Assembly: GCA_943325355.2 (NCBI GenBank)
Contig: CALPPA020000019.1
Span: 1 to 13,436, forward strand
DNA: 13,436 nt
Direction: 5' to 3'
From: Klebsiella pneumoniae
GTDB lineage: Bacteria > Bacteroidota > Bacteroidia > Flavobacteriales > Flavobacteriaceae
Below, in pieces: positions 3 through 9,363 of the stretch. The translations under genes and the position numbers were made by a program. A model generated the notes under the pieces. It searched no databases and was not told where the DNA came from. It saw only the letters and a program-made list of their open reading frames with translations. Position 1 is the first letter of the stretch. Every line of letters begins with the position of its first letter.

Positions 3-500
3 ATTGACACTAAATATTTTCCTTATAAAACGTCATACAATAAGACAAAATACCTAAAACAAGTTACCATTTATACCGATAGCAGAATAGAAGAGGCCAT
101 TATTAAAATTCATTTTTATGAGGTTGCCCCAAATGGTTCTCCTGGAGAAGAATTGTTGGACAAAGATTTTGTTGTCACTGTAAAAAAAGGGACAAGAATT
201 AACCGATTTGATTTAAAGGAGTTTAATTTAAAATTTCCAAAAAAAGGGCTTTTTGTTGGATTTGAAAAATTAATGATAGAAAAAAACAAAACCGAAAAAA
301 CCATAACAGATTCAAACACGAACATATCACAAACACAAAAGACCTATTTCCCTTTTGTGCTGTACAATTACGTGGAAAGAGATTTTTTATACACTTTTTC
401 AGGTGGAAAATGGAATAGACAAACAAAAAAGGGCGAAAGTGAAACATCAGCTAAAATCATGATAAACGAACCGGCAATAACGCTAATACTAACCAACTAA
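3..500 (+). CDS. C-terminal part of a probable carboxypeptidase-like regulatory-domain surface protein (5' end outside window)
   Basis: The frame is open from the first bases of the window to TAA at 498-500, giving 165 residues, so the gene starts upstream; the TTG at 153 is internal. The visible part reads like the C-terminal beta-rich portion of a Bacteroidota family often labelled carboxypeptidase-like regulatory domain protein. Marks are the stretch IKIHFYEVAPNGSPGEELL followed by FVVTVKKGTRI and FPKKGLFVGFEKL, i.e. alternating beta strands around a GxPGEEL turn. A lysine/threonine-rich linker follows, then a last strand pair ending in ITLILTN. No membrane segment is visible here, and a signal peptide would lie outside the window. 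Such proteins are probably exported or outer-membrane associated, but their role is unknown. The family match is from memory; coding status is secure because of the long open frame and protein-like composition. Confidence 0.7.
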   Translation: MDTKYFPYKTSYNKTKYLKQVTIYTDSRIEEAIIKIHFYEVAPNGSPGEELLDKDFVVTVKKGTRINRFDLKEFNLKFPKKGLFVGFEKLMIEKNKTEKTITDSNTNISQTQKTYFPFVLYNYVERDFLYTFSGGKWNRQTKKGESETSAKIMINEPAITLILTN

Positions 501-513
501 CGCAAAAAAACCA

Positions 514-521
514 TACATTTG
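514..521 (+). promoter_or_regulatory. possible Bacteroidota -7 box (TACATTTG)
   Basis: TACATTTG matches the TAnnTTTG consensus. It lies just upstream of the 68-bp repeat, 64 nt before the ATG at 586, so the transcript would carry the repeat as its leader. There is no TTG at the usual -33 distance, so support is weak. Confidence 0.25.
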
Positions 522-523
522 CA

Positions 524-591
524 GGTTACAAAAAGTAAACTAAAATAAGGATGAAGATTGCTTCGTTCCTCGTAATGACAAAAAAATGAAA
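524..591 (+). repeat. copy A of a 68-bp inverted dispersed repeat (ORF6N-tail plus leader)
   Basis: Matches the minus strand of 6035-5968 at 64 of 68 positions with no gap; differences are at 544, 546, 573 and 583. The left end is GGTTACAAAAAGTAA, which in the other copy is the last four codons (GYKK) and stop of the ORF6N gene. Here it follows no ORF6N gene. The core is GATTGCTTCGTTCCTCG followed by TAATGAC, a motif resembling short repeats scattered in many bacterial genomes. ATTGC and GTAAT can form a short stem, with a G-T pair where copy B has G-C. The right end reaches the ATGAAA that starts the gene at 586. Confidence 0.9.
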
Positions 592-2271
592 GAAATAAAA
601 AACATATCAAGATCAAGAGCTCAAGAATCATCGGCGGCAATCGAAAAAATGTACATCACGATGCGCCATTTATTCAACCGTGGGTTTTATAAACCAATGG
701 GAGTTTCTGGCGATACATTGCGAGAAGCATTATTAACCTTGCGCCCAGAAATTTACGGAAATATTGGAGATGATAAGGTGGAACTCAATGGACTTTTATA
801 CGTTATTGAGCGTCTTCCGATAGGAATTGAAGAATGTCGATTTATTAATTTAACTTCGGATGAAGGCTACTCAAAATCACATTTTCAAGCCATTGTTCCT
901 CCAAAAAGAAAAAGAAATTGTTACCGCATTGACGAAGAGCAAATGAATGTCGAAATCACACGCGGAAGATCAGACATCTATGATATTTTGACACATTTAA
1001 CTTTTATTTTTATCGAATCTCATAAGATACGAAATAGAGTATTACTAGATGATGCAGGCGAAGTTTCTCGCGATTGGCAAAAATTAGGTTTAGCGGTTTC
1101 ACAAAAGAAAAAGCTGTCACAAAACGAAAAGGAGAAAGCGGTTTCACATACTGCAAATATTCTAGGAAGAACATTTATCGAAGTTTTAGAGATTTACGAT
1201 GCTTTTGGTTCCGAAGCTGCTCCTGATCGATTTTTGGATGTAATCTATTGGTTAGGAAAATTAGCGATAGAAGAGGTGGTTGATGACAACAAAAGAACCA
1301 TAACATTCAGTCCTATTCTAAGAGAACGATTAGGACATCATATTCACGGCGAAATTTGGGCAACAAATATTAAGGAAGTATTAATAAAGAGCCAACTTTT
1401 AGACCGACCAATCCACGTGATTAGTGCTAATATGCACAGTGTAATGAATTCTATTTTTGCAACAACAGTTTTAAAATCCAAGTTTAAAGACCAATCTGAT
1501 TTCTTTATTTATGAAGAATTGAGCAAATCTGGAGCTTATGATGTTAGGGATAAAGTTTCAGCGTTTGCAGAACAACACGGAATGATTTCGCTTCCAGATG
1601 CTGCTTCTGGAACCAATATTGACGTGCAAATTTTTGATACTGCAAAAATAGATTGGGCTAAAACTTCGTTTCCAACAGCGAAAATAGGAGATAAAAAACC
1701 AGTATTAATTGTAATGGATTACGCTTTTGGGGAACAAGCTTATGAAACCATAGATGAATTATTGAAGCCTTTCAAGAAAAACAATAGCTTACTTAACGTG
1801 GAATCGGTTTCTATAATGGGAAAAGCGGGAATTCTTCAAGGTGGAAAAGGGGATATTATGATTCCAACAGCACATATCAACGAAGGAACAGCAGATAATT
1901 ATTTTTTCCATAACGAGTTATCTGCATCAATGTTTGAAGGCGATGGCATTCCAGTTTTTGAAGGCCCAATGGTTACCGTTTTAGGCACATCTTTGCAAAA
2001 CAAAGATTTATTAAAGTTTTTCCACGAATCGACTTGGGGTGTAATTGGACTGGAAATGGAAGGTTCTTATTATCAAAAAGCCATTCAATCGGCATCTAAA
2101 ATTAGAAAAAGTATTCCGCTTGATGTGAAAGTAAGATATGCTTATTATGCATCAGATAATCCATTGGAAACAGGAAGCACATTAGCTTCGGGTGGTTTAG
2201 GAACAACAGGTGTAAAACCTACTTATTTGATAACCATCAAGATTTTAGAACAAATTTTTAATGTGAAATAA
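586..2271 (+). CDS. conserved protein with nucleoside phosphorylase-like C-terminal half (DUF6909-like)
   Basis: 561 residues with no signal peptide or membrane segment, so probably cytoplasmic. The N-terminal ~270 residues are mostly helical, rich in Arg and His, and not assignable from motifs. The C-terminal part (about 275-561) resembles the purine nucleoside phosphorylase/nucleosidase fold. PVLIVMDYAFGEQ is a buried strand; MGKAGILQGGKGDIMIPTA starts near residue 411; GLEMEGSYY near 488 corresponds to the MEs/t motif that binds ribose in that superfamily; YYASDNPLETG resembles the S-D-x-P loop before the last helix. AMP nucleosidase is also an N-terminal domain plus phosphorylase domain, but the sequence here is clearly different, so I do not assign a substrate. 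I recall the family as DUF6909 of Bacteroidota. The ATG at 586 lies at the very end of the 68-bp repeat, which forms its leader. The neighbours do not explain its job. Confidence 0.75.
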   Translation: MKEIKNISRSRAQESSAAIEKMYITMRHLFNRGFYKPMGVSGDTLREALLTLRPEIYGNIGDDKVELNGLLYVIERLPIGIEECRFINLTSDEGYSKSHFQAIVPPKRKRNCYRIDEEQMNVEITRGRSDIYDILTHLTFIFIESHKIRNRVLLDDAGEVSRDWQKLGLAVSQKKKLSQNEKEKAVSHTANILGRTFIEVLEIYDAFGSEAAPDRFLDVIYWLGKLAIEEVVDDNKRTITFSPILRERLGHHIHGEIWATNIKEVLIKSQLLDRPIHVISANMHSVMNSIFATTVLKSKFKDQSDFFIYEELSKSGAYDVRDKVSAFAEQHGMISLPDAASGTNIDVQIFDTAKIDWAKTSFPTAKIGDKKPVLIVMDYAFGEQAYETIDELLKPFKKNNSLLNVESVSIMGKAGILQGGKGDIMIPTAHINEGTADNYFFHNELSASMFEGDGIPVFEGPMVTVLGTSLQNKDLLKFFHESTWGVIGLEMEGSYYQKAIQSASKIRKSIPLDVKVRYAYYASDNPLETGSTLASGGLGTTGVKPTYLITIKILEQIFNVK

Positions 2272-2340
2272 AAAATTGGCCTCACAAACGGAAAGAAATA
2301 ACAATCCATTTATAACCGCTTAAAAAATAAATCTACACAT

Positions 2341-3693
2341 CTGAAAACAAAAACAGCAAGATACTCAGGCTATATTCGCCCTTTTTCCTACTTGATTGAT
2401 TTAATCATCATCAATGTATTGGCAATTTATATAATGCCCTTTCATTCTAACCAAATTCTTTATTCCATTTTAATAAGTTCCTCTTGGTTTATTATTTCAG
2501 TTTATTTAGGGTTTTATGAGGTCTACAGATATACAAAAGTAATTGCAATCCTAAATTGTGCTTTAAAACAATTTATTTTATTTGCTTTATTTTGTTTGGC
2601 TTTAGAGCTGAATTATTCGGAATTATTGAATCAAAAAAGAGTTGTATTATTTGTTTTCAGTTCTCTAGTAATAATCGTTTCGGCTAAAATTTTTATTTAT
2701 TATTTTCTAAGAAGATATAGGATTTTAGTTGGTAGGAATTTCAGGAGTGTAGTATTATTAGGAAAGATTAAAAACATCGAACCTTTAAAATTATTTTTTA
2801 CAGACAACCCAGATTATGGGTATAAATTAATAAAAGTATTTACACCAGAAGAATATAAAAAAGAAATAGTAGAAAAATGCTTGTCATTTGTACTAGAAAC
2901 AAAGACCGATGAAATATACTGTGCTACAGCTGATTTAACAGACAATCAAATTAGAGAAATTATAAATTTTTCTGATAATAATTTTAAGACTTTAAAGTTT
3001 ATTCCAGACGAAAAGCAATTTTTAACTCATAGAATGAAGTTCGAATATTACGATTATATCCCGGTTATTCCGTCAAGAAATATTTTGCAGGATGAAACCA
3101 TAAATAAAATGGTAAAAAGGATATTCGATATTGTTTTTTCTATAATAATAATAATAGGAATATTATCCTGGCTTGTGCCAATTATGGCAATAATAATAAA
3201 ATTAGAATCAAGAGGGCCTGTGTTTTTTATCCAAAAAAGGAATGGATTAAATTATAAAGTTTTTAATTGTTATAAGTTTCGTTCTATGGAGATTAACAGC
3301 CAGGAAGACATAGATTTAGCTTTGATAAACGATTTAAAAATAACTAGGATTGGTAAATTTATTCGGAAAACAAGCCTGGATGAATTACCACAATTCTTTA
3401 ATGTTTTTTGGGGCGAAATGTCAGTTGTTGGACCAAGACCTCACCCAATAAGTCATAATAATAAATATGCTAAAATGACAAATACATTTATGGCTCGGCA
3501 TTTTGTTAAGCCAGGAATCACTGGATTGGCTCAATCCAAAGGCTTCAGAGGCGAAATTGAAACCGATGACGACATCATAAATAGGGTAAAATACGATATT
3601 TTTTATATAGAGAATTGGTCCATTTTATTGGATATTGAAATTGTAATTAAAACGATTTTTAACACGTTTAAAGGAGACAATAAAGCATACTAA
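2341..3693 (+). CDS. undecaprenyl-phosphate sugar phosphotransferase (exopolysaccharide/O-antigen initiating enzyme), probable CTG start
   Basis: Inner-membrane enzyme that transfers a sugar 1-phosphate from a UDP-sugar to undecaprenyl phosphate, the first step of lipid-linked polysaccharide assembly. The N-terminal half has hydrophobic helices (LIDLIIINVLAIYIM, then ISSSWFIISVYLGFYEVY, FILFALFCLALEL, VVLFVFSSLVIIVSAKIF). A soluble CoA-binding-like region follows, then the bacterial sugar transferase domain: KRIFDIVFS, the membrane segment IIIIIGILSWLVPIMAIII, RGPVFFIQKRNG, YKFRSM, TRIGKFIRKTSLDELPQFFN, MSVVGPRPHP and KPGITGLAQ. These are the family's full diagnostic set. No ATG, GTG or TTG precedes the conserved N-terminus KTARYSGYIRPFSYLIDL. 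The frame opens after TAA at 2299-2301, and CTG at 2341 is the best start (450 aa). TTG at 2392 would cut into the first helix. The 3' end overlaps the opposing GT4 gene by 26 bp. Sugar specificity cannot be read. Confidence 0.88.
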   Translation: MKTKTARYSGYIRPFSYLIDLIIINVLAIYIMPFHSNQILYSILISSSWFIISVYLGFYEVYRYTKVIAILNCALKQFILFALFCLALELNYSELLNQKRVVLFVFSSLVIIVSAKIFIYYFLRRYRILVGRNFRSVVLLGKIKNIEPLKLFFTDNPDYGYKLIKVFTPEEYKKEIVEKCLSFVLETKTDEIYCATADLTDNQIREIINFSDNNFKTLKFIPDEKQFLTHRMKFEYYDYIPVIPSRNILQDETINKMVKRIFDIVFSIIIIIGILSWLVPIMAIIIKLESRGPVFFIQKRNGLNYKVFNCYKFRSMEINSQEDIDLALINDLKITRIGKFIRKTSLDELPQFFNVFWGEMSVVGPRPHPISHNNKYAKMTNTFMARHFVKPGITGLAQSKGFRGEIETDDDIINRVKYDIFYIENWSILLDIEIVIKTIFNTFKGDNKAY

Positions 3694-4873
3694 AAACACC
3701 TTTATTGATTAATTCCTTTATTTGAAAATCAAGGTTGAATTTTTGTTCTGCAGATTCAAAAACGGTTGTTTTCATATTCTGAATTTCACTTTTTCCTATT
3801 TTTGAGATTTCGATTAAAGTCGAATTCAAGCTTTCGAAATTTCCAACTTGCGCAACCCAACCTAGTTTATTTTCTCTTACAATGGTTTCTCCTTCTCCAC
3901 CACCAAAATAAAGAATAGGAAACCCCAAAGCACCATATTCGAATATTTTTGAAGGAACAGATCCATAAATCCTTGTTTTTAATGGTACAATGGCAATGTC
4001 AAAAGTTTTCAGTTTTTCGTGTAAAATGGTGCGTTCTAACATACCGTGAAAAAATATTTTTCTCTCCGGATGTTGCTTAATTAAATCTTCGATTTGGGAT
4101 TTTTCGGCACCATCTCCAAAAATGTGTAATTCAATGTTCAATTTTTGCAATTCAATGTTTTTGCACAATTCATAAACACCTTGCGCAACGCCCAATAATC
4201 CTGCATAAAATAGTTTTATTGGTTCATTAATTTTTGTTTCAAAAACCATTTCTGCCACTTGATGGTCTGGAAAATTACGGTATAAATAACATTTTTTCGC
4301 TGGAAAAATAGAATGAATATGTGTAATGATTTCGTTAGATTGACCCAAGATTGAATTTGCACTCGAATAGATAAATTGTTCAAAATACAAAGAAATTTTA
4401 TGCGAAAAACTGTTTTTTTTCAAAGCATTTAATTCAATGGCCGCCAATGGCCATAAATCAGAAATATTTAAAATTATTTTCTTTCGCATAAGTGAAAGCA
4501 CAAACACCGATACAAACGATAACAATAGCGGTGGTGATTGAACAACAACTTTATTAGGTGTTTTTTTGCTCAATAAGTAGAAAAAAAGAACAGTCGAAAA
4601 CGACAAAACCGAAAGCGATCTTTTAAATATGTTTTTACTAACACTAGGATAAATCCAAAGTCGTTTTACGGTAATGTTTTGAAGATTTTCAGTCACCGAA
4701 AATTTCCCTTTGTATTCGGGAAATAATTCACCTTTAGGATAATTTCCCAGTGGACAAAGCACCGTAACTTTGTAATTATTATGATGTAATTTCAAAGCCA
4801 ATTGCTCTATTCTATTGGCGGCTGCACCTTTTTCTGGTGGATAATAATTCGATATGATGAGTATGTCGCCCAT
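3668..4873 (-). CDS. glycosyltransferase family 4 (WbuB-like)
   Basis: 401-residue GT-B glycosyltransferase expected to act at the cytoplasmic face of the inner membrane, adding a sugar to a lipid-linked glycan. The N-terminal domain begins MGDILIISNYYPPEKGAAANR, the usual nucleotide-sugar GT4 opening with a glycine/alanine-rich loop. A hydrophobic stretch around residues 95-130 (VLFFYLLSK, LLLSFVSVFVLSL) fits membrane association, and NISDLWPLAAIEL resembles the WbuB subgroup. The C-terminal donor domain shows LFYAGLLGVAQGV, LHIFGDGAE, FFHGMLER, then SKIFEYGALGFPILYFGGG and GEGETIV, the E-x7-E region. ATG at 4873-4871 overlaps the wecB stop by one base (TAATG), pointing to translational coupling. 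The last residues (VFSMLYCLL) are encoded opposite the end of the sugar transferase. WbuB proteins of other species transfer N-acetyl-fucosamine, but substrate identity here is inference only. Confidence 0.87.
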   Translation of the reverse strand: MGDILIISNYYPPEKGAAANRIEQLALKLHHNNYKVTVLCPLGNYPKGELFPEYKGKFSVTENLQNITVKRLWIYPSVSKNIFKRSLSVLSFSTVLFFYLLSKKTPNKVVVQSPPLLLSFVSVFVLSLMRKKIILNISDLWPLAAIELNALKKNSFSHKISLYFEQFIYSSANSILGQSNEIITHIHSIFPAKKCYLYRNFPDHQVAEMVFETKINEPIKLFYAGLLGVAQGVYELCKNIELQKLNIELHIFGDGAEKSQIEDLIKQHPERKIFFHGMLERTILHEKLKTFDIAIVPLKTRIYGSVPSKIFEYGALGFPILYFGGGEGETIVRENKLGWVAQVGNFESLNSTLIEISKIGKSEIQNMKTTVFESAEQKFNLDFQIKELINKGVFSMLYCLL

Positions 4874-5973
4874 TATTTTTGAAGCAAAATTTCAATAATT
4901 CGTTCCGAAGCTTTTCCGTCCCATAGTTCTGGAATTCCTGCTTTTCGGGCTTTCTCCCGATTGTTATCGGTATTAAGAAATTCTCCAAATAGTTTTTTTA
5001 AATTTTCAATCGAAGTTCCCACTAAAGTATTGGTTCCAATACTTTGGGTTTCGGGTCTTTCGGTATTGTTTCGCATCGTAAAACACGGAATTCCCATAAC
5101 GGTAGTTTCTTCTGAAATTCCGCCAGAATCCGTAATAACTGCAAAACTATTTTTGATGAGGTACATAAAATTCAAATAGCCTTGTGGTTCCACAAAAAGA
5201 ATGTTTTTCAATTTTAAATTTGTTTCGCCTAAAATAGCTTTTGTCCTTGGATGAATCGGGAAAATGACTTTTTTGCCGCCAGCCATTGCATCAATTCCTT
5301 GGAGTAATTGAATTAAGGATTGTTCTTCGTCCACATTTGACGGGCGATGTAATGTTAGAATAATATAATTTCCAGTTGCTAATTGGAATTCATTCCAAAA
5401 AACGGGTTCAAAAATTCTATCCAAATTTTGATATAAAGTATCAATCATCACATTGCCCACGAAATGGATATTGCTTGCATCAACACCATATTTCAATAAA
5501 TTTTCAGATGCTGATGTCGAGGTTGTAAAGAAATAATCCGTGATGCTGTCAGTCACAATTCTATTGATTTCTTCGGGCATTGTCATATCGCCTGAGCGAA
5601 TTCCAGCTTCGACGTGGGCGACTTTTATATTTTGTTTTTTAGCTACAATCGCACAAGCCATCGTCGAATTGACATCACCAACTACCAAAACCAAATCGCA
5701 ATGATTTTGTTGTAATTCTTTTTCAAAAGCGACCATAATCGCTCCAGTTTGTTCCGCTTGCGAACCACTTTTTACCTCCAGATTACTGTTGGGTTTCGGA
5801 ATATTCAATTCTTCAAAAAACGTATCGCTGAGATTTTTGTCATAATGCTGACCTGTATGCACCAAACGATAGGAAATAGTAGCTCCTTCGTTTTGCTTTT
5901 TTTCAATCGCTTTGATGATGGGTGCGATTTTGATAAAATTAGGTCTTGCGCCAGCAACTATGGTTATTTTCAT
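4873..5973 (-). CDS. wecB: UDP-N-acetylglucosamine 2-epimerase (non-hydrolysing)
   Basis: 366 residues, normal for the family. It interconverts UDP-GlcNAc and UDP-ManNAc in the cytoplasm, supplying ManNAc-type precursors for surface polysaccharide. Motifs in order: GARPNFIK (8-15), HTGQHYD (39-45), GDVNS (99-103), HVEAGIRSGDMTMPEEINR (120-138), HRPSNVD (209-215), then ITDSGGISEE, the UDP-binding loop, and NNTERPET. The acidic residues D100, E122 and E134/E135 and His209 match catalytic-site positions known for this family. Related epimerases act on 6-deoxy-aminosugars (FnlC/WbjD type); the EAGIRSGDMTMPEEINR form favours the WecB type. The ATG is preceded directly by the 68-bp repeat and the ORF6N gene 47 bp upstream. 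The stop shares a base with the next gene's ATG. Likely co-transcribed with the CapK-like and ORF6N genes. Confidence 0.95.
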   Translation of the reverse strand: MKITIVAGARPNFIKIAPIIKAIEKKQNEGATISYRLVHTGQHYDKNLSDTFFEELNIPKPNSNLEVKSGSQAEQTGAIMVAFEKELQQNHCDLVLVVGDVNSTMACAIVAKKQNIKVAHVEAGIRSGDMTMPEEINRIVTDSITDYFFTTSTSASENLLKYGVDASNIHFVGNVMIDTLYQNLDRIFEPVFWNEFQLATGNYIILTLHRPSNVDEEQSLIQLLQGIDAMAGGKKVIFPIHPRTKAILGETNLKLKNILFVEPQGYLNFMYLIKNSFAVITDSGGISEETTVMGIPCFTMRNNTERPETQSIGTNTLVGTSIENLKKLFGEFLNTDNNREKARKAGIPELWDGKASERIIEILLQK

Positions 5974-6035
5974 TTGTTTGTCATTGCGAGGAACGAAGCA
6001 ATCTTCATCCTTTTGTTAGTTTACTTTTTGTAACC
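5968..6035 (-). repeat. copy B of the 68-bp inverted dispersed repeat
   Basis: Read on the minus strand, it starts with the ORF6N codons GGT TAC AAA AAG and TAA, runs through AGGATGAAGATTGCTTCG and CTCGCAATGAC, and ends on the ATGAAA of wecB. ATTGC/GCAAT forms a 5-bp stem around TTCGTTCCTC. It is the inverted partner of 524-591 (64/68 identical), about 5.4 kb away. Confidence 0.9.
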
Positions 6036-6572
6036 AATTTTTGTTCTTGGCGTTTGCTTCGCCTGTTCGCCAAAAAGGCTCGGGTCATTTTCTTTTTTCT
6101 CGGACAATTCATCCAAATAAGAAAAAACCAATTCAATATTTTTGTCGTGATTCTCTAATTTTTTCTGAATTTGAAGAATGTCTATTTTTAAATTGGTGGT
6201 GTCCAAAAGCATTTGTCTCACCTTTGAAAATATCCGCATAATCTGAATATTGGTTTGAATGGCTTTGTCGCTATTGATTACACTTGACAACATCAAAACT
6301 CCGTGTTCGGTAAACACAGAAGGTAATTTTCTAGCGCCTCCCCAACTTGAAGTCACAATTTGTGACTTCAATTTTTGGAATTCAATTACAGTAAGTTGAA
6401 ACATAAAATCTTCAGGAAACCGAGAAATATTACGTTTAACAGCTTGATTTAGAACTTTAGTTTCAATCCCGTAAAGCGTTGCCAAATCACGATCCAGCAT
6501 CACTTTTTGATTTCTAATAAAGTAAATTTTATTAGAAATCAATTCTTCAGAAAGCAGTATTTCGTTTGCCAT
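6021..6572 (-). CDS. ORF6N domain-containing DNA-binding protein
   Basis: 183 residues. Residues about 12-118 form an ORF6N domain, a KilA-N-related putative DNA-binding module common in phages and abundant in Bacteroidota chromosomes. Diagnostic stretches: IYFIRNQKVMLDRDLATLY, VLNQAVKRNISRFPEDFMF, LKSQIVTSSWGGARKLP and VFTEHGVLMLS. The remainder (KIDILQIQKKLENHDKNIE, then YLDELSEKKE) looks like a coiled coil, followed by a short basic tail ending GYKK. An in-frame TAA two codons before ATG 6572-6570 fixes the N-terminus. It sits between the CapK-like gene (48 bp) and wecB (47 bp), an odd place in a polysaccharide operon. Its last codons and the spacer downstream form the repeat also present at 524-591, and a self-matching palindrome lies in and before it. 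No other phage genes are near. Function unknown; cassette-like insertion is inferred. Confidence 0.9.
   Translation of the reverse strand: MANEILLSEELISNKIYFIRNQKVMLDRDLATLYGIETKVLNQAVKRNISRFPEDFMFQLTVIEFQKLKSQIVTSSWGGARKLPSVFTEHGVLMLSSVINSDKAIQTNIQIMRIFSKVRQMLLDTTNLKIDILQIQKKLENHDKNIELVFSYLDELSEKKENDPSLFGEQAKQTPRTKIGYKK
6347..6371. repeat. 25-nt perfect palindrome inside the ORF6N coding sequence
   Basis: TTGAAGTCACAA, one central base, then TTGTGACTTCAA: 12-bp perfect arms. On the minus strand it encodes LKSQIVTS, a conserved part of the ORF6N domain. Sixteen bases of it (6356-6371) recur exactly at 6603-6618, upstream of the same gene. Confidence 0.9.
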
Positions 6573-6602
6573 AAATTATGTTTTTTAATTTCTTCAAGGA
6601 CG

Positions 6603-6618
6603 CAATTTGTGACTTCAA
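6603..6618. promoter_or_regulatory. repeated half-palindrome upstream of the ORF6N start (possible operator)
   Basis: CAATTTGTGACTTCAA is an exact 16-nt copy of 6356-6371 and lies 31-46 nt before the ORF6N ATG. The other arm (TTCAAGGACGCAA at about 6593-6605) is only a degenerate partner. Spacing suits an autoregulatory site, but there is no direct evidence of binding. Confidence 0.35.
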
Positions 6619-6620
6619 GA

Positions 6621-7934
6621 TTATTTCATCAACGAAATAAACTGCTTCAATTTTCCGCTTTTGCCTCGTTCTAATTTTTCTTTTCGGATGAATGTAAATG
6701 CCAATCCTTTTTCCAAATATAAGGTTATTGCCGCTTCAATTTTCTTGATTTGTGCCAAATTTAATTCGGTTGCGCTCACATATTCAATTTCAAAAGCATC
6801 AATTTTAGTTTGTTTGATGATAAATTCTTTTACATTGCCATCGTCTTCGATGATGCTTTTGGTCACGTAGTAAAAAGTTAATCCTGGCGACTTTTTTCCG
6901 CTTGGCAAAATGGCGATGTCATTAGTTCGACCAATTAGTTGTTGCAAAATTGGTTTTTTTGGTGTGCTTTTTTCGTCCAAAATCCCAATGTCTCCAATGT
7001 CGTATCGAATAAACGGATGCGCTTTATTGAACAATGACGTAATTACAACGCGACCTGCTGCACCGTAAGGCAAAACGTTGTTGTTTTCGTCCAAAATTTC
7101 TACAAAAAGAGTTTCAGAATTCACTTGCCATTCTCCGTCTATATTTTGAAAAGCAATCAAATCCAGTTCCGAAGCTCCGTATTCATTAACAACAGGCACG
7201 CCAAATTGTTTTTCTAGCAGCATTTTGTCATTATCAAAAAGCATTTCAGAAGTAACCACACATACTTTCAAAGTTGGGCAAATATGTTTTAATATTATAT
7301 TTTTTTGCTGTAAAAATTTGGCCAACAAAACAATAGAACTGGTATAACCGTTGATGTAATCGAATTTTTTTGTTTCAAATTGCTGTAAAAAACTTTCTAA
7401 GACTACATCCGATAAATCGAAAACAGAAAACCGGTAGCGATTACTCAAAAAATCCTTAAATCGTTCTTTTTTGTTGTCCAAAAAGGTCAACGGAATTCCA
7501 TAAAAACGAGCTTGATAAGAGGTGTTAAAATCAATTCCGTACCAGCCAAAACGATTGATGTTTGTCGCCCAAGTTAAGGCGTGCGAAAATTTGTCTTTGG
7601 CAAAAATAAAAGGATCACCACTAGAGCCGGAAGTTTTATTAATATAAACATTTTTTAGAGTAAACCCTCTTGAAAGTCTTTCCTTTAAAGGTTTCTGAAA
7701 GGCTGCCTTGGTCATTATTGGTAAATCGTTCCATTTATTAAAAGTAGTTTTGCCAACAATTTTTTGATAGGATGGATTATTTTTTAAATGAAATTCAACA
7801 ATTTCTTGTTTTTTATTTTCAATAAAAGCTTCAAATTCGTGTTCGGGAATAGACTGAATATTTCGCAATTCGGCTTTGGCCTTCTTCATTGGAAAACCAT
7901 TTATTTGGAGCGATAAATCAAAAAGTGGAAACAT
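6621..7934 (-). CDS. CapK/PaaK-like adenylate-forming enzyme (phenylacetate-CoA ligase family protein)
   Basis: 437 residues from the ATG at 7934-7932. An in-frame TTG at 7955 would add seven residues but lies inside a -7 promoter box, and MFPLFDLSLQINGFP is the expected N-terminus. It is a member of the ANL/AMP-binding superfamily in the branch of phenylacetate-CoA ligase and capsule protein CapK. Features: the P-loop-like NKTSGSSGDPF (about 99-109), NEYGASELD in the adenylate-binding region, FIRYDIGDIG with the ribose-binding Asp, then LIGRTNDIAILPSG and a small C-terminal domain with KLERGKSGKLKQF carrying the likely catalytic lysine. Enzymes of this branch in polysaccharide loci are thought to activate or attach acyl or amino acids; the substrate here is unknown. 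First gene of the minus-strand run with ORF6N, wecB and GT4. Confidence 0.85.
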   Translation of the reverse strand: MFPLFDLSLQINGFPMKKAKAELRNIQSIPEHEFEAFIENKKQEIVEFHLKNNPSYQKIVGKTTFNKWNDLPIMTKAAFQKPLKERLSRGFTLKNVYINKTSGSSGDPFIFAKDKFSHALTWATNINRFGWYGIDFNTSYQARFYGIPLTFLDNKKERFKDFLSNRYRFSVFDLSDVVLESFLQQFETKKFDYINGYTSSIVLLAKFLQQKNIILKHICPTLKVCVVTSEMLFDNDKMLLEKQFGVPVVNEYGASELDLIAFQNIDGEWQVNSETLFVEILDENNNVLPYGAAGRVVITSLFNKAHPFIRYDIGDIGILDEKSTPKKPILQQLIGRTNDIAILPSGKKSPGLTFYYVTKSIIEDDGNVKEFIIKQTKIDAFEIEYVSATELNLAQIKKIEAAITLYLEKGLAFTFIRKEKLERGKSGKLKQFISLMK

Positions 7935-7952
7935 TATTGTAAATATATTTAC

Positions 7953-7960
7953 CAAAAATA
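7953..7960 (-). promoter_or_regulatory. -7 box (TATTTTTG) for the CapK-like gene
   Basis: Minus-strand TATTTTTG is a full TAnnTTTG match 18 nt before the ATG at 7934, giving a leader of roughly 10-15 nt. The nearest upstream TTG lies at 25 nt spacing, slightly beyond the usual 17-23. It probably drives the four-gene minus-strand unit. Confidence 0.4.
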
Positions 7961-8034
7961 ATATTTACCAACAACTAATGACCATCAACCAACAACTTTT
8001 TAAAAATTAATTATTTTTTAAGTTCAAAAGCAAT

Positions 8035-8042
8035 TATTTTTG
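8035..8042 (+). promoter_or_regulatory. possible -7 box (TATTTTTG) for purD
   Basis: A full TAnnTTTG match 43 nt before the purD ATG. No TTG is found at the -33 distance, so it is a weak candidate. Confidence 0.3.
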
Positions 8043-8047
8043 CCAAA

Positions 8048-8062
8048 TCCTCCTACGGCGGA
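8048..8062. repeat. small imperfect hairpin in the purD leader
   Basis: TCCTCC-TAC-GGCGGA pairs at five of six positions. The GC-rich TACGGCGGA stands out from AT-rich surroundings and resembles short GCCG-type repeats seen in flavobacterial spacers. No function assigned. Confidence 0.3.
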
Positions 8063-8085
8063 CAAGCAACATAACAACACAATAT

Positions 8086-9363
8086 ATGATAATTTTACTA
8101 CTGGGTTCAGGAGGAAGAGAACACGCTTTTGCTTGGAAAATGATTCAAAGTCCGCTTTGCGATACACTTTTTGTAGCACCAGGAAATGCAGGAACCGCTT
8201 CGATAGCTAATAATGTTGACATCAGTCCAACGGATTTTGATGCCGTAAAAGCATTAGTGCTTCAGGAAAAAGTGGAAATGGTGGTTGTTGGGCCAGAAGA
8301 TCCATTGGTAAAAGGAATTTTCGACTTTTTCAAAAATGACAACGAATTAAAAGATATTCCGGTTATTGGGCCATCAAAATTAGGTGCTACCCTCGAAGGA
8401 AGTAAAGAGTTTGCCAAAGAATTTTTAATAAAACATAACATTCCAACAGCAGCTTATGACAGTTTTACTGCCGAAACGGTAGAGAAAGGATGTGATTTTC
8501 TAGAAACTTTACATCCGCCTTATGTTTTAAAAGCCGATGGATTGGCGGCAGGAAAAGGCGTTTTAATTATTCACGATTTGGCAGAAGCTAAAGAAGAATT
8601 ACGAAATATGTTGGTCAACCAAAAATTTGGTGCGGCAAGTTCAAAAGTGGTTATCGAAGAATTCTTAGATGGAATTGAATTGAGCTGCTTCGTATTGACA
8701 GACGGGAAAAGCTATAAGATATTACCAACAGCTAAAGATTACAAACGAATTGGCGAAGGGGACACAGGCTTGAATACAGGCGGAATGGGAGCCGTTTCTC
8801 CAGTTCCTTATGTAGATTCTGTTTTGATGGAAAAAATAGAAACACGCATCGTAAAACCAACCATTGAAGGTTTTCAAAAGGACGGAATCGAATACAAAGG
8901 ATTTGTTTTTATTGGTTTGATTAACGTCAATAATGAGCCAATCGTTATAGAATACAATGTGAGAATGGGCGATCCCGAAACCGAAGTGGTAGTTCCAAGA
9001 ATGAAATCGGATTTAGTGGAATTGTTTTTGGCTGTAGCCTATGAAAAACTAGACGAATTCAAACTTGAAATTGATGAAAGAAGTGCGACTACAATTATGC
9101 TTGTTTCTGGCGGTTATCCGGAAGATTTCGAGAAAGGAAAAATAATTTCAGGGTTGGAGGAGAGCATTGAAGATTCGATTGTTTTTCACGCAGGAACTAA
9201 ATTGGATAACGGAAATGTTGTTACCAATGGAGGAAGAGTTTTGGCGGTGACATCTTATGGAAATGACTTTCAAGAGGCTATAAAAAAATCTTATCAAAAC
9301 ATAGACAAGCTACATTTTGATAAGATGTATTTTAGAAAAGATATTGGCTTCGACTTACTTTAA
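8086..9363 (+). CDS. purD: phosphoribosylamine-glycine ligase (GAR synthetase)
   Basis: 425 residues, the normal length. It joins 5-phosphoribosylamine and glycine using ATP to form GAR, the second step of de novo purine synthesis, in the cytoplasm. Visible motifs: N-domain LLLGSGGREHAFAWKM (4-19) and APGNAGTA; VVGPEDPLVKGI; GPSKLGATLEGSKEFAKEF; ATP-grasp lysine region YVLKADGLAAGKGVLI; VVIEEFLDGIELS; the signature AKDYKRIGEGDTGLNTGGMG; and EYNVRMGDPETEVV with the metal-binding Glu and Asn. The C-terminal part has MLVSGGYPEDFEKGK. Nothing is missing. It stands alone on the + strand, divergent from the CapK-like gene, with no other de novo purine gene beside it. The last nine bases overlap the opposing small membrane protein gene. 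Confidence 0.97.
   Translation: MIILLLGSGGREHAFAWKMIQSPLCDTLFVAPGNAGTASIANNVDISPTDFDAVKALVLQEKVEMVVVGPEDPLVKGIFDFFKNDNELKDIPVIGPSKLGATLEGSKEFAKEFLIKHNIPTAAYDSFTAETVEKGCDFLETLHPPYVLKADGLAAGKGVLIIHDLAEAKEELRNMLVNQKFGAASSKVVIEEFLDGIELSCFVLTDGKSYKILPTAKDYKRIGEGDTGLNTGGMGAVSPVPYVDSVLMEKIETRIVKPTIEGFQKDGIEYKGFVFIGLINVNNEPIVIEYNVRMGDPETEVVVPRMKSDLVELFLAVAYEKLDEFKLEIDERSATTIMLVSGGYPEDFEKGKIISGLEESIEDSIVFHAGTKLDNGNVVTNGGRVLAVTSYGNDFQEAIKKSYQNIDKLHFDKMYFRKDIGFDLL

Follow-up and report, generated by a model that had tools for sequence, protein, structure and literature searches.

A 68-nt inverted repeat at a flavobacterial polysaccharide locus as a probable leader copy within a dispersed repeat family

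Invertible promoters and segments occur at Bacteroidota polysaccharide loci, and a pair of inverted repeats flanking polysaccharide genes raises the question of whether the DNA between them can flip. Such a pair is present in the window analysed here, a whole contig of 13,436 nucleotides from an incomplete MAG (2.06 Mb in 321 contigs, 64% complete) whose genus is most likely Flavobacterium, as loci of this genome align with Flavobacterium contigs at 87% identity over 1396 nt and 81% over 1453 nt. The initial annotation of the window proposed that recombination between the repeats could invert segment 586-5973 and thereby switch the expression of polysaccharide genes, or that the pair records a past rearrangement. 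Here, we describe how the apparent polysaccharide switch is explained away through the history preserved in related genomes: on the sequence evidence, the inverted repeat most probably arose by recent copying within a dispersed family of leader repeats, and the switch is unsupported.

The first repeat precedes a gene at 586..2271 (+), whose protein, 561 aa long and conserved in the genus, has PF21850 (DUF6909) in Pfam as its sole family match, at E 1e-4; searches against NCBIfam (1e-5) and PDB sequences (0.01) gave no match. It was initially labelled "phosphorylase-like", and we call it the DUF6909 gene; the name AMN (AMP nucleosidase) was also considered and was unsupported by any search. The second repeat precedes wecB, encoding a non-hydrolysing UDP-GlcNAc 2-epimerase (4873..5973, -; TIGR00236 over cut-off), and lies next to an ORF6N-domain gene (6021..6572, -; PF10543). 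The identities of wecB and the ORF6N gene were borne out by profile scores over cut-offs, as were those of the sugar transferase and GT4 genes (bacterial sugar transferase and group-1 glycosyltransferase), and the ORF at 3-500, initially described as a surface protein, gave no family match in Pfam or NCBIfam. In the window, the DUF6909 gene and the sugar transferase gene are 0.1 kb apart (2271-2392); in many relatives this interval holds from ~1 to >20 kb of other, variable sequence, and in the relative G295, like in the window, there is almost nothing between the two genes.

The two arms of the repeat, arm A (524..591, +) and arm B (5968..6035, -), were found on re-alignment to be identical at 64 of 68 bases over 68 ungapped nucleotides, as first reported, and a BLAST search of the whole genome with one arm as query recovered the other at E=3.4e-24, so the pair is not due to chance. 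It was also correctly observed that the arms reach the ATG of the next gene; both continue through ATGAAA and, including the ATG and three further bases, therefore overlap each gene by 6 nt. Arm B additionally takes in the 3' end of the ORF6N gene, four codons plus the stop (6035-6021 on the - strand, GGT TAC AAA AAG TAA, encoding G Y K K and stop), the letters of which recur in arm A; the presence of this coding end within the (-) arm was missing from the initial annotation.

Several features can be read within the arms. A 24-nt core lies at 556..579 (+) in arm A and at 5980..6003 (-) in arm B, with one and zero mismatches to the family pattern, respectively, and RNA folding predicts a leader hairpin at 548..570 (+), where AGGATGAAG pairs with CTTCG.TCCT, and at 5989..6011 (-). 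From the element's own ATG, a putative mini-ORF extends over 575..589 (+; ATG ACA AAA AAA TGA) in arm A and 5970..5984 (-; ATG ACA AAC AAA TGA) in arm B, and its stop codon overlaps the start codon of the DUF6909 gene and wecB, respectively, as ATGA. Just outside arm A, the DUF6909 gene has a -7 box of the TAnnTTTG type (TACATTTG, 514..521, +; consensus from PMC9723704), and a box resembling TACATTTG is found at the corresponding leader position in several relatives.

The reasoning that a crossover in the arms would preserve both reading frames is sound, and the end of the ORF6N gene would be preserved as well. A flip of 586-5973 would give the DUF6909 gene and wecB each other's leaders and upstream transcription and could in this way bring about polysaccharide phase variation; arms that are 68 bp long, 94% identical and inverted are in keeping with such a flip, as is the earlier copying described below, which would show that both places can exchange sequence. 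The initial annotation suggested comparing the orientation of the segment in relatives, and this comparison speaks against an invertible segment. Relative to a purD or paaK anchor, the DUF6909 gene was oriented as in the window in 13/13 relatives (a fourteenth, G001, had neither anchor within the stretch fetched), and relative to an ORF6N gene on the same contig in 10/10 (G083, G162, G202, G208, G287, G289, G295, G327, G365 and G368; 22 genomes entered this test and the other 12 were without an anchor among the matches listed). None of the relatives with orientation read carries both arms, so their constant orientation bears on this pair indirectly; the window assembly has a single arrangement, and no recombinase was found among the 8 proteins from 3-9360 scanned with Pfam and NCBIfam profiles. 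The arms, further, do not stand out within the dispersed family to which they belong. Inversion between the arms is possible in principle and unsupported, as is a resulting switch in expression in view of the dispersed family, the copy origin of arm A and the constant orientation, and we regard an invertible segment as very improbable.

The arms are members of a dispersed repeat family of ~35 nt that is often found in Flavobacterium gene leaders, a few nt 5' of the start codon, and the arm repeat is not a dedicated inversion site. At E up to 10, one arm as query hit 34 places in the window's own genome. For the 24-nt core GATTGCTTCGNNCCTCGCAATGAC, 22 copies at up to 3 mismatches were counted in this incomplete genome (reversed control 0), one of them inside a long ORF as called by a simple ORF caller. 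The exact core was present in 62 of 121 genus genomes (reversed control none), and a scan of named genomes gave at least 120 core stretches, the 80 listed being mostly from Bacteroidota (Mucilaginibacter, Pedobacter, Flavobacterium, Tannerella and others) and the core matches listed including a few MAG records under other names. Numerous core copies are located just 5' of start codons, and numerous copies in other genomes are distant from them. In the window's own genome, the element also precedes pdxJ, GHMP kinase, rseP, trpS and groEL genes, as well as an acyl-CoA dehydrogenase-like and a fabF-like gene; the names of these other element-led genes come from NCBIfam, where several fell below curated cut-offs because the proteins were cut at 300 residues. 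Variants and other placements were also seen: loci L020 and L022 carry a sister repeat, GTCATTTCGACGAAGGAGAAATC, sharing the GTCAT...ATC frame, and near position 1500 of L082, L090 and L101, from three genomes, the core is situated at the end of apparently the same gene, providing the G of its TAG stop. Inverted core pairs, tens of nucleotides apart, BIME-like and off start codons, occur in G122 and G137 (L144, L163-L166, L169-L171).

How this family came to be present twice in the window can be traced in relatives, with the order of events informed by three close genomes (G162, G295 and G315). The core was found before the DUF6909 gene in 0 of 35 relatives scanned and before wecB in 1 of 15 (G162; G295 counted twice). 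G162 has the element between ORF6N and wecB, with the spacer AAACAA before the ATG as in the window, and no element before the DUF6909 gene; G295 has it before neither gene, its empty junction being ORF6N-GGTTACAAAAAATAATAGCATA-wecB, and in G315 the arrangement 5' of wecB differs. At the sites where the arms differ, G162 matches arm B in 4/4, and one extra site differs in G162 alone. The tail of arm B, GGTTACAAAAAGTAA, is the end of the ORF6N gene, and the identical letters in arm A are noncoding; the ORF6N protein ends in KIGYKK in 5 of 7 relatives compared, with KIGYK in G005 and a disturbed frame in G017. The agreement of G162 with arm B at all four sites and the ORF6N codons in arm A thus point to arm B, in the ORF6N/wecB interval, as the source and to arm A as the derived copy. 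Copying in the other direction, from the DUF6909 gene to wecB and perhaps via RNA, since the start of arm B is close to the DUF6909 transcription start, was also considered and is reversed by the ORF6N conservation and by G162.

We therefore consider, with good confidence, that the pair arose when a leader was copied between genes within the dispersed family and that the inverted repeat followed as a by-product. The ORF6N-wecB junction would first have acquired the element, as in the empty G295 and filled G162 states, and in the window lineage the DUF6909 leader, at a distance of 5.4 kb, would then have received a copy of the stretch from the last ORF6N codons to the wecB start in place of part of its native sequence. 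As the route we consider ectopic gene conversion or template switching probable, and conversion itself is something that we infer. In G295, native microhomology exists as GCAGGTTACAAAAC in the DUF6909 leader and AATTGGTTACAAAA at the ORF6N end, and the DUF6909 gene and wecB both start with ATGAAA; since this DUF6909 leader already has GGTTACAAAA, the exchange may have been guided by short homologies at its two flanks, GGTTACAAAA and ATGAAA. The copy is an inverted repeat because the DUF6909 gene and wecB face each other, and the repeat would be a product of copying and not of inversion machinery. The initially offered alternative of a past rearrangement thus comes close: a past event is probably recorded, in the form of copying and not of inversion. 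The effect would be a small hairpin added ~14 nt 5' of the AUG while the promoter box and start codon stay, so at most the translation or mRNA stability of the DUF6909 gene may have been tuned.

Two other explanations for the similarity of the arms deserve consideration. Similar leaders could result from two independent mobile-element insertions before the two genes, and the core family does appear to be mobile over evolutionary time, being present or absent at orthologous leaders. The core was found in 0/29 relatives scanned for the pdxJ leader and in 1/29 for the rseP leader (G315), where the -7 box and start codon are retained and the intervening leader is altered; at the empty sites of wecB, pdxJ and rseP, the leaders are replaced or diverged, and the target-site duplication expected of a transposon-derived MITE was not seen in clean form by eye. 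The arms, however, share 20 nt past the hairpin, including the ORF6N codons, and it is because these letters are present in arm A that we reject independent insertion, which the G162-like state also argues against and which we consider unlikely. Alternatively, one arm could have been misassembled from the other, as might be suspected of a MAG with 321 contigs and 64% completeness. This is hardly credible given the 4 differing sites between the arms, the joining of arm A to a native promoter box and a native DUF6909 start, the match of arm B to G162 in place and a gene order that agrees with relatives.

The start-codon-linked subfamily of the repeat in Flavobacterium is of more interest than the window pair. 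Copies unselected for ATG were counted as start-abutting when an ORF of 80 codons or more started 0-12 nt from the copy. In the window's own genome, this was the case for 9/19 copies on the 3' side versus 0/19 on the 5' side (Fisher P 0.001), and in other genus genomes for 17/114 versus 4/114 (Fisher P 0.005). In other named genomes, the counts were 7/121 versus 1/121 with no peak at 6 nt, and the spacing pattern is thus not seen outside the genus sample. A search for core-N{0,20}-ATG in 398 genus genomes gave 153 with a match, and among the 150 matches listed, which are non-independent as orthologues and double ATGs were retained, 66 had the ATG at 3, 6 or 7 nt (21, 26 and 19, respectively). 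The opposite-side control had 4/150 rows at these distances and peaks of its own at 2, 5, 9 and 18 nt, and we read these 5'-side peaks as flank sequence of paired copies. Among 35 distinct genes from a set of 168 copies, including 30 loci fetched because of an ATG within 20 nt, the spacing was 6 nt in 11 and 3 nt in 8.

The start-abutting copies also differ in their upstream letters. In the 168-copy set, AGGATG is found directly 5' of the core in 15/39 start-abutting copies versus 1/129 others (Fisher P 4e-10), and AGGATG-bearing copies have a predicted RNA hairpin that ends ~14 nt before the AUG. In the comparison of the leader subfamily, the core together with the 12 nt upstream of it had a mean predicted energy of -6.9 against -4.7 kcal/mol, with no hairpin covariation clear by eye. 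For 34 distinct genes with the element ATG, the mini-ORF ends ahead of the gene ATG or overlaps it as ATGA in 19 (17 plus 2), stops within 25 nt in 5 and shares the frame of the gene in 8. Longer out-of-frame overlaps were seen in 2 of these genes versus 8 expected under randomised frames (P=0.004), where one or two A were added per spacer and the cut-offs of 4 and 25 nt were picked after viewing the gene list. Translation of the mini-ORF would account for this frame bias, and so would simple selection against long overlaps. The base after the gene ATG is A in 27 of 35 genes. Adenines at -3, -6, -12 and -13 are positive determinants in F. johnsoniae (PMC6847099), and element-led genes have A at -3 in 30/35 and at -6 in 19/35, the base at -3 of the window wecB being C; start-codon context would be a second, simpler force acting on element-led starts. 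We tentatively suggest, as a possibility that we hold to be rather less than even, a start-locked mobile leader element of Flavobacterium, with a hairpin (AGAGGATGA plus core), its own ATG and a mini-ORF that ends at or beside the gene ATG (usually as ATGA) or is in frame, which would serve as a ready-made translation leader, perhaps through termination-reinitiation, and spread by short-homology copying between leaders.

Ribosomes of the Bacteroidota group do not use Shine-Dalgarno pairing (PMC6847099), and a dispersed repeat at preferred AUG distances is thus met here in a group without such pairing. Should the element AUG be translated, start-codon choice and upstream-ORF tolerance in Bacteroidota could be tested on thousands of natural copies, and leader copying between genes, if it occurs, could spread regulation without a transposase.

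Any claim that the core family is new would rest on literature searches: a search with the exact core letters gave no match and other literature listings gave no family description. The RepRanger catalogue (PMC12306157) assigns large numbers of REPs to Flavobacterium urumqiense and F. ginsenosidimutans, which may or may not include this family. Flavo-1 RNA (RF01705) is likewise a dispersed, structured repeat in flavobacteria, with no clear function according to PMC9723704; it encloses the core at three loci (L034:1471-1554, L039:317-406 and L048:1475-1568; 3/7 sources given to Rfam). Rfam gave no match to Flavo-1 or any other family in the window, at the gathering threshold or at E up to 1, and the leader unit is not itself Flavo-1. 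Like invertible promoters and segments at Bacteroidota polysaccharide loci, the window has inverted repeats near surface-polysaccharide genes; it differs from them in having a dispersed repeat, a constant orientation in relatives and no recombinase among the proteins scanned. The core family is REP-like in copy number, palindromic character and intergenic position; like REP and BIME repeats, it is short, dispersed, imperfectly palindromic and mostly intergenic, and in several other genomes it forms close inverted pairs as BIMEs do. A link to REP-associated RAYT genes was not seen, with the core in 0/30 PF01797 loci (up to 4 mismatches, ~1.5 kb on each side; more than 30 PF01797 matches existed), and in G061, at 99% completeness, 8 exact cores were found alongside no match to PF01797. 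Start-codon spacing and one-sided orientation are to our knowledge not part of the description of REPs, and it is in these features that the core family differs from them.
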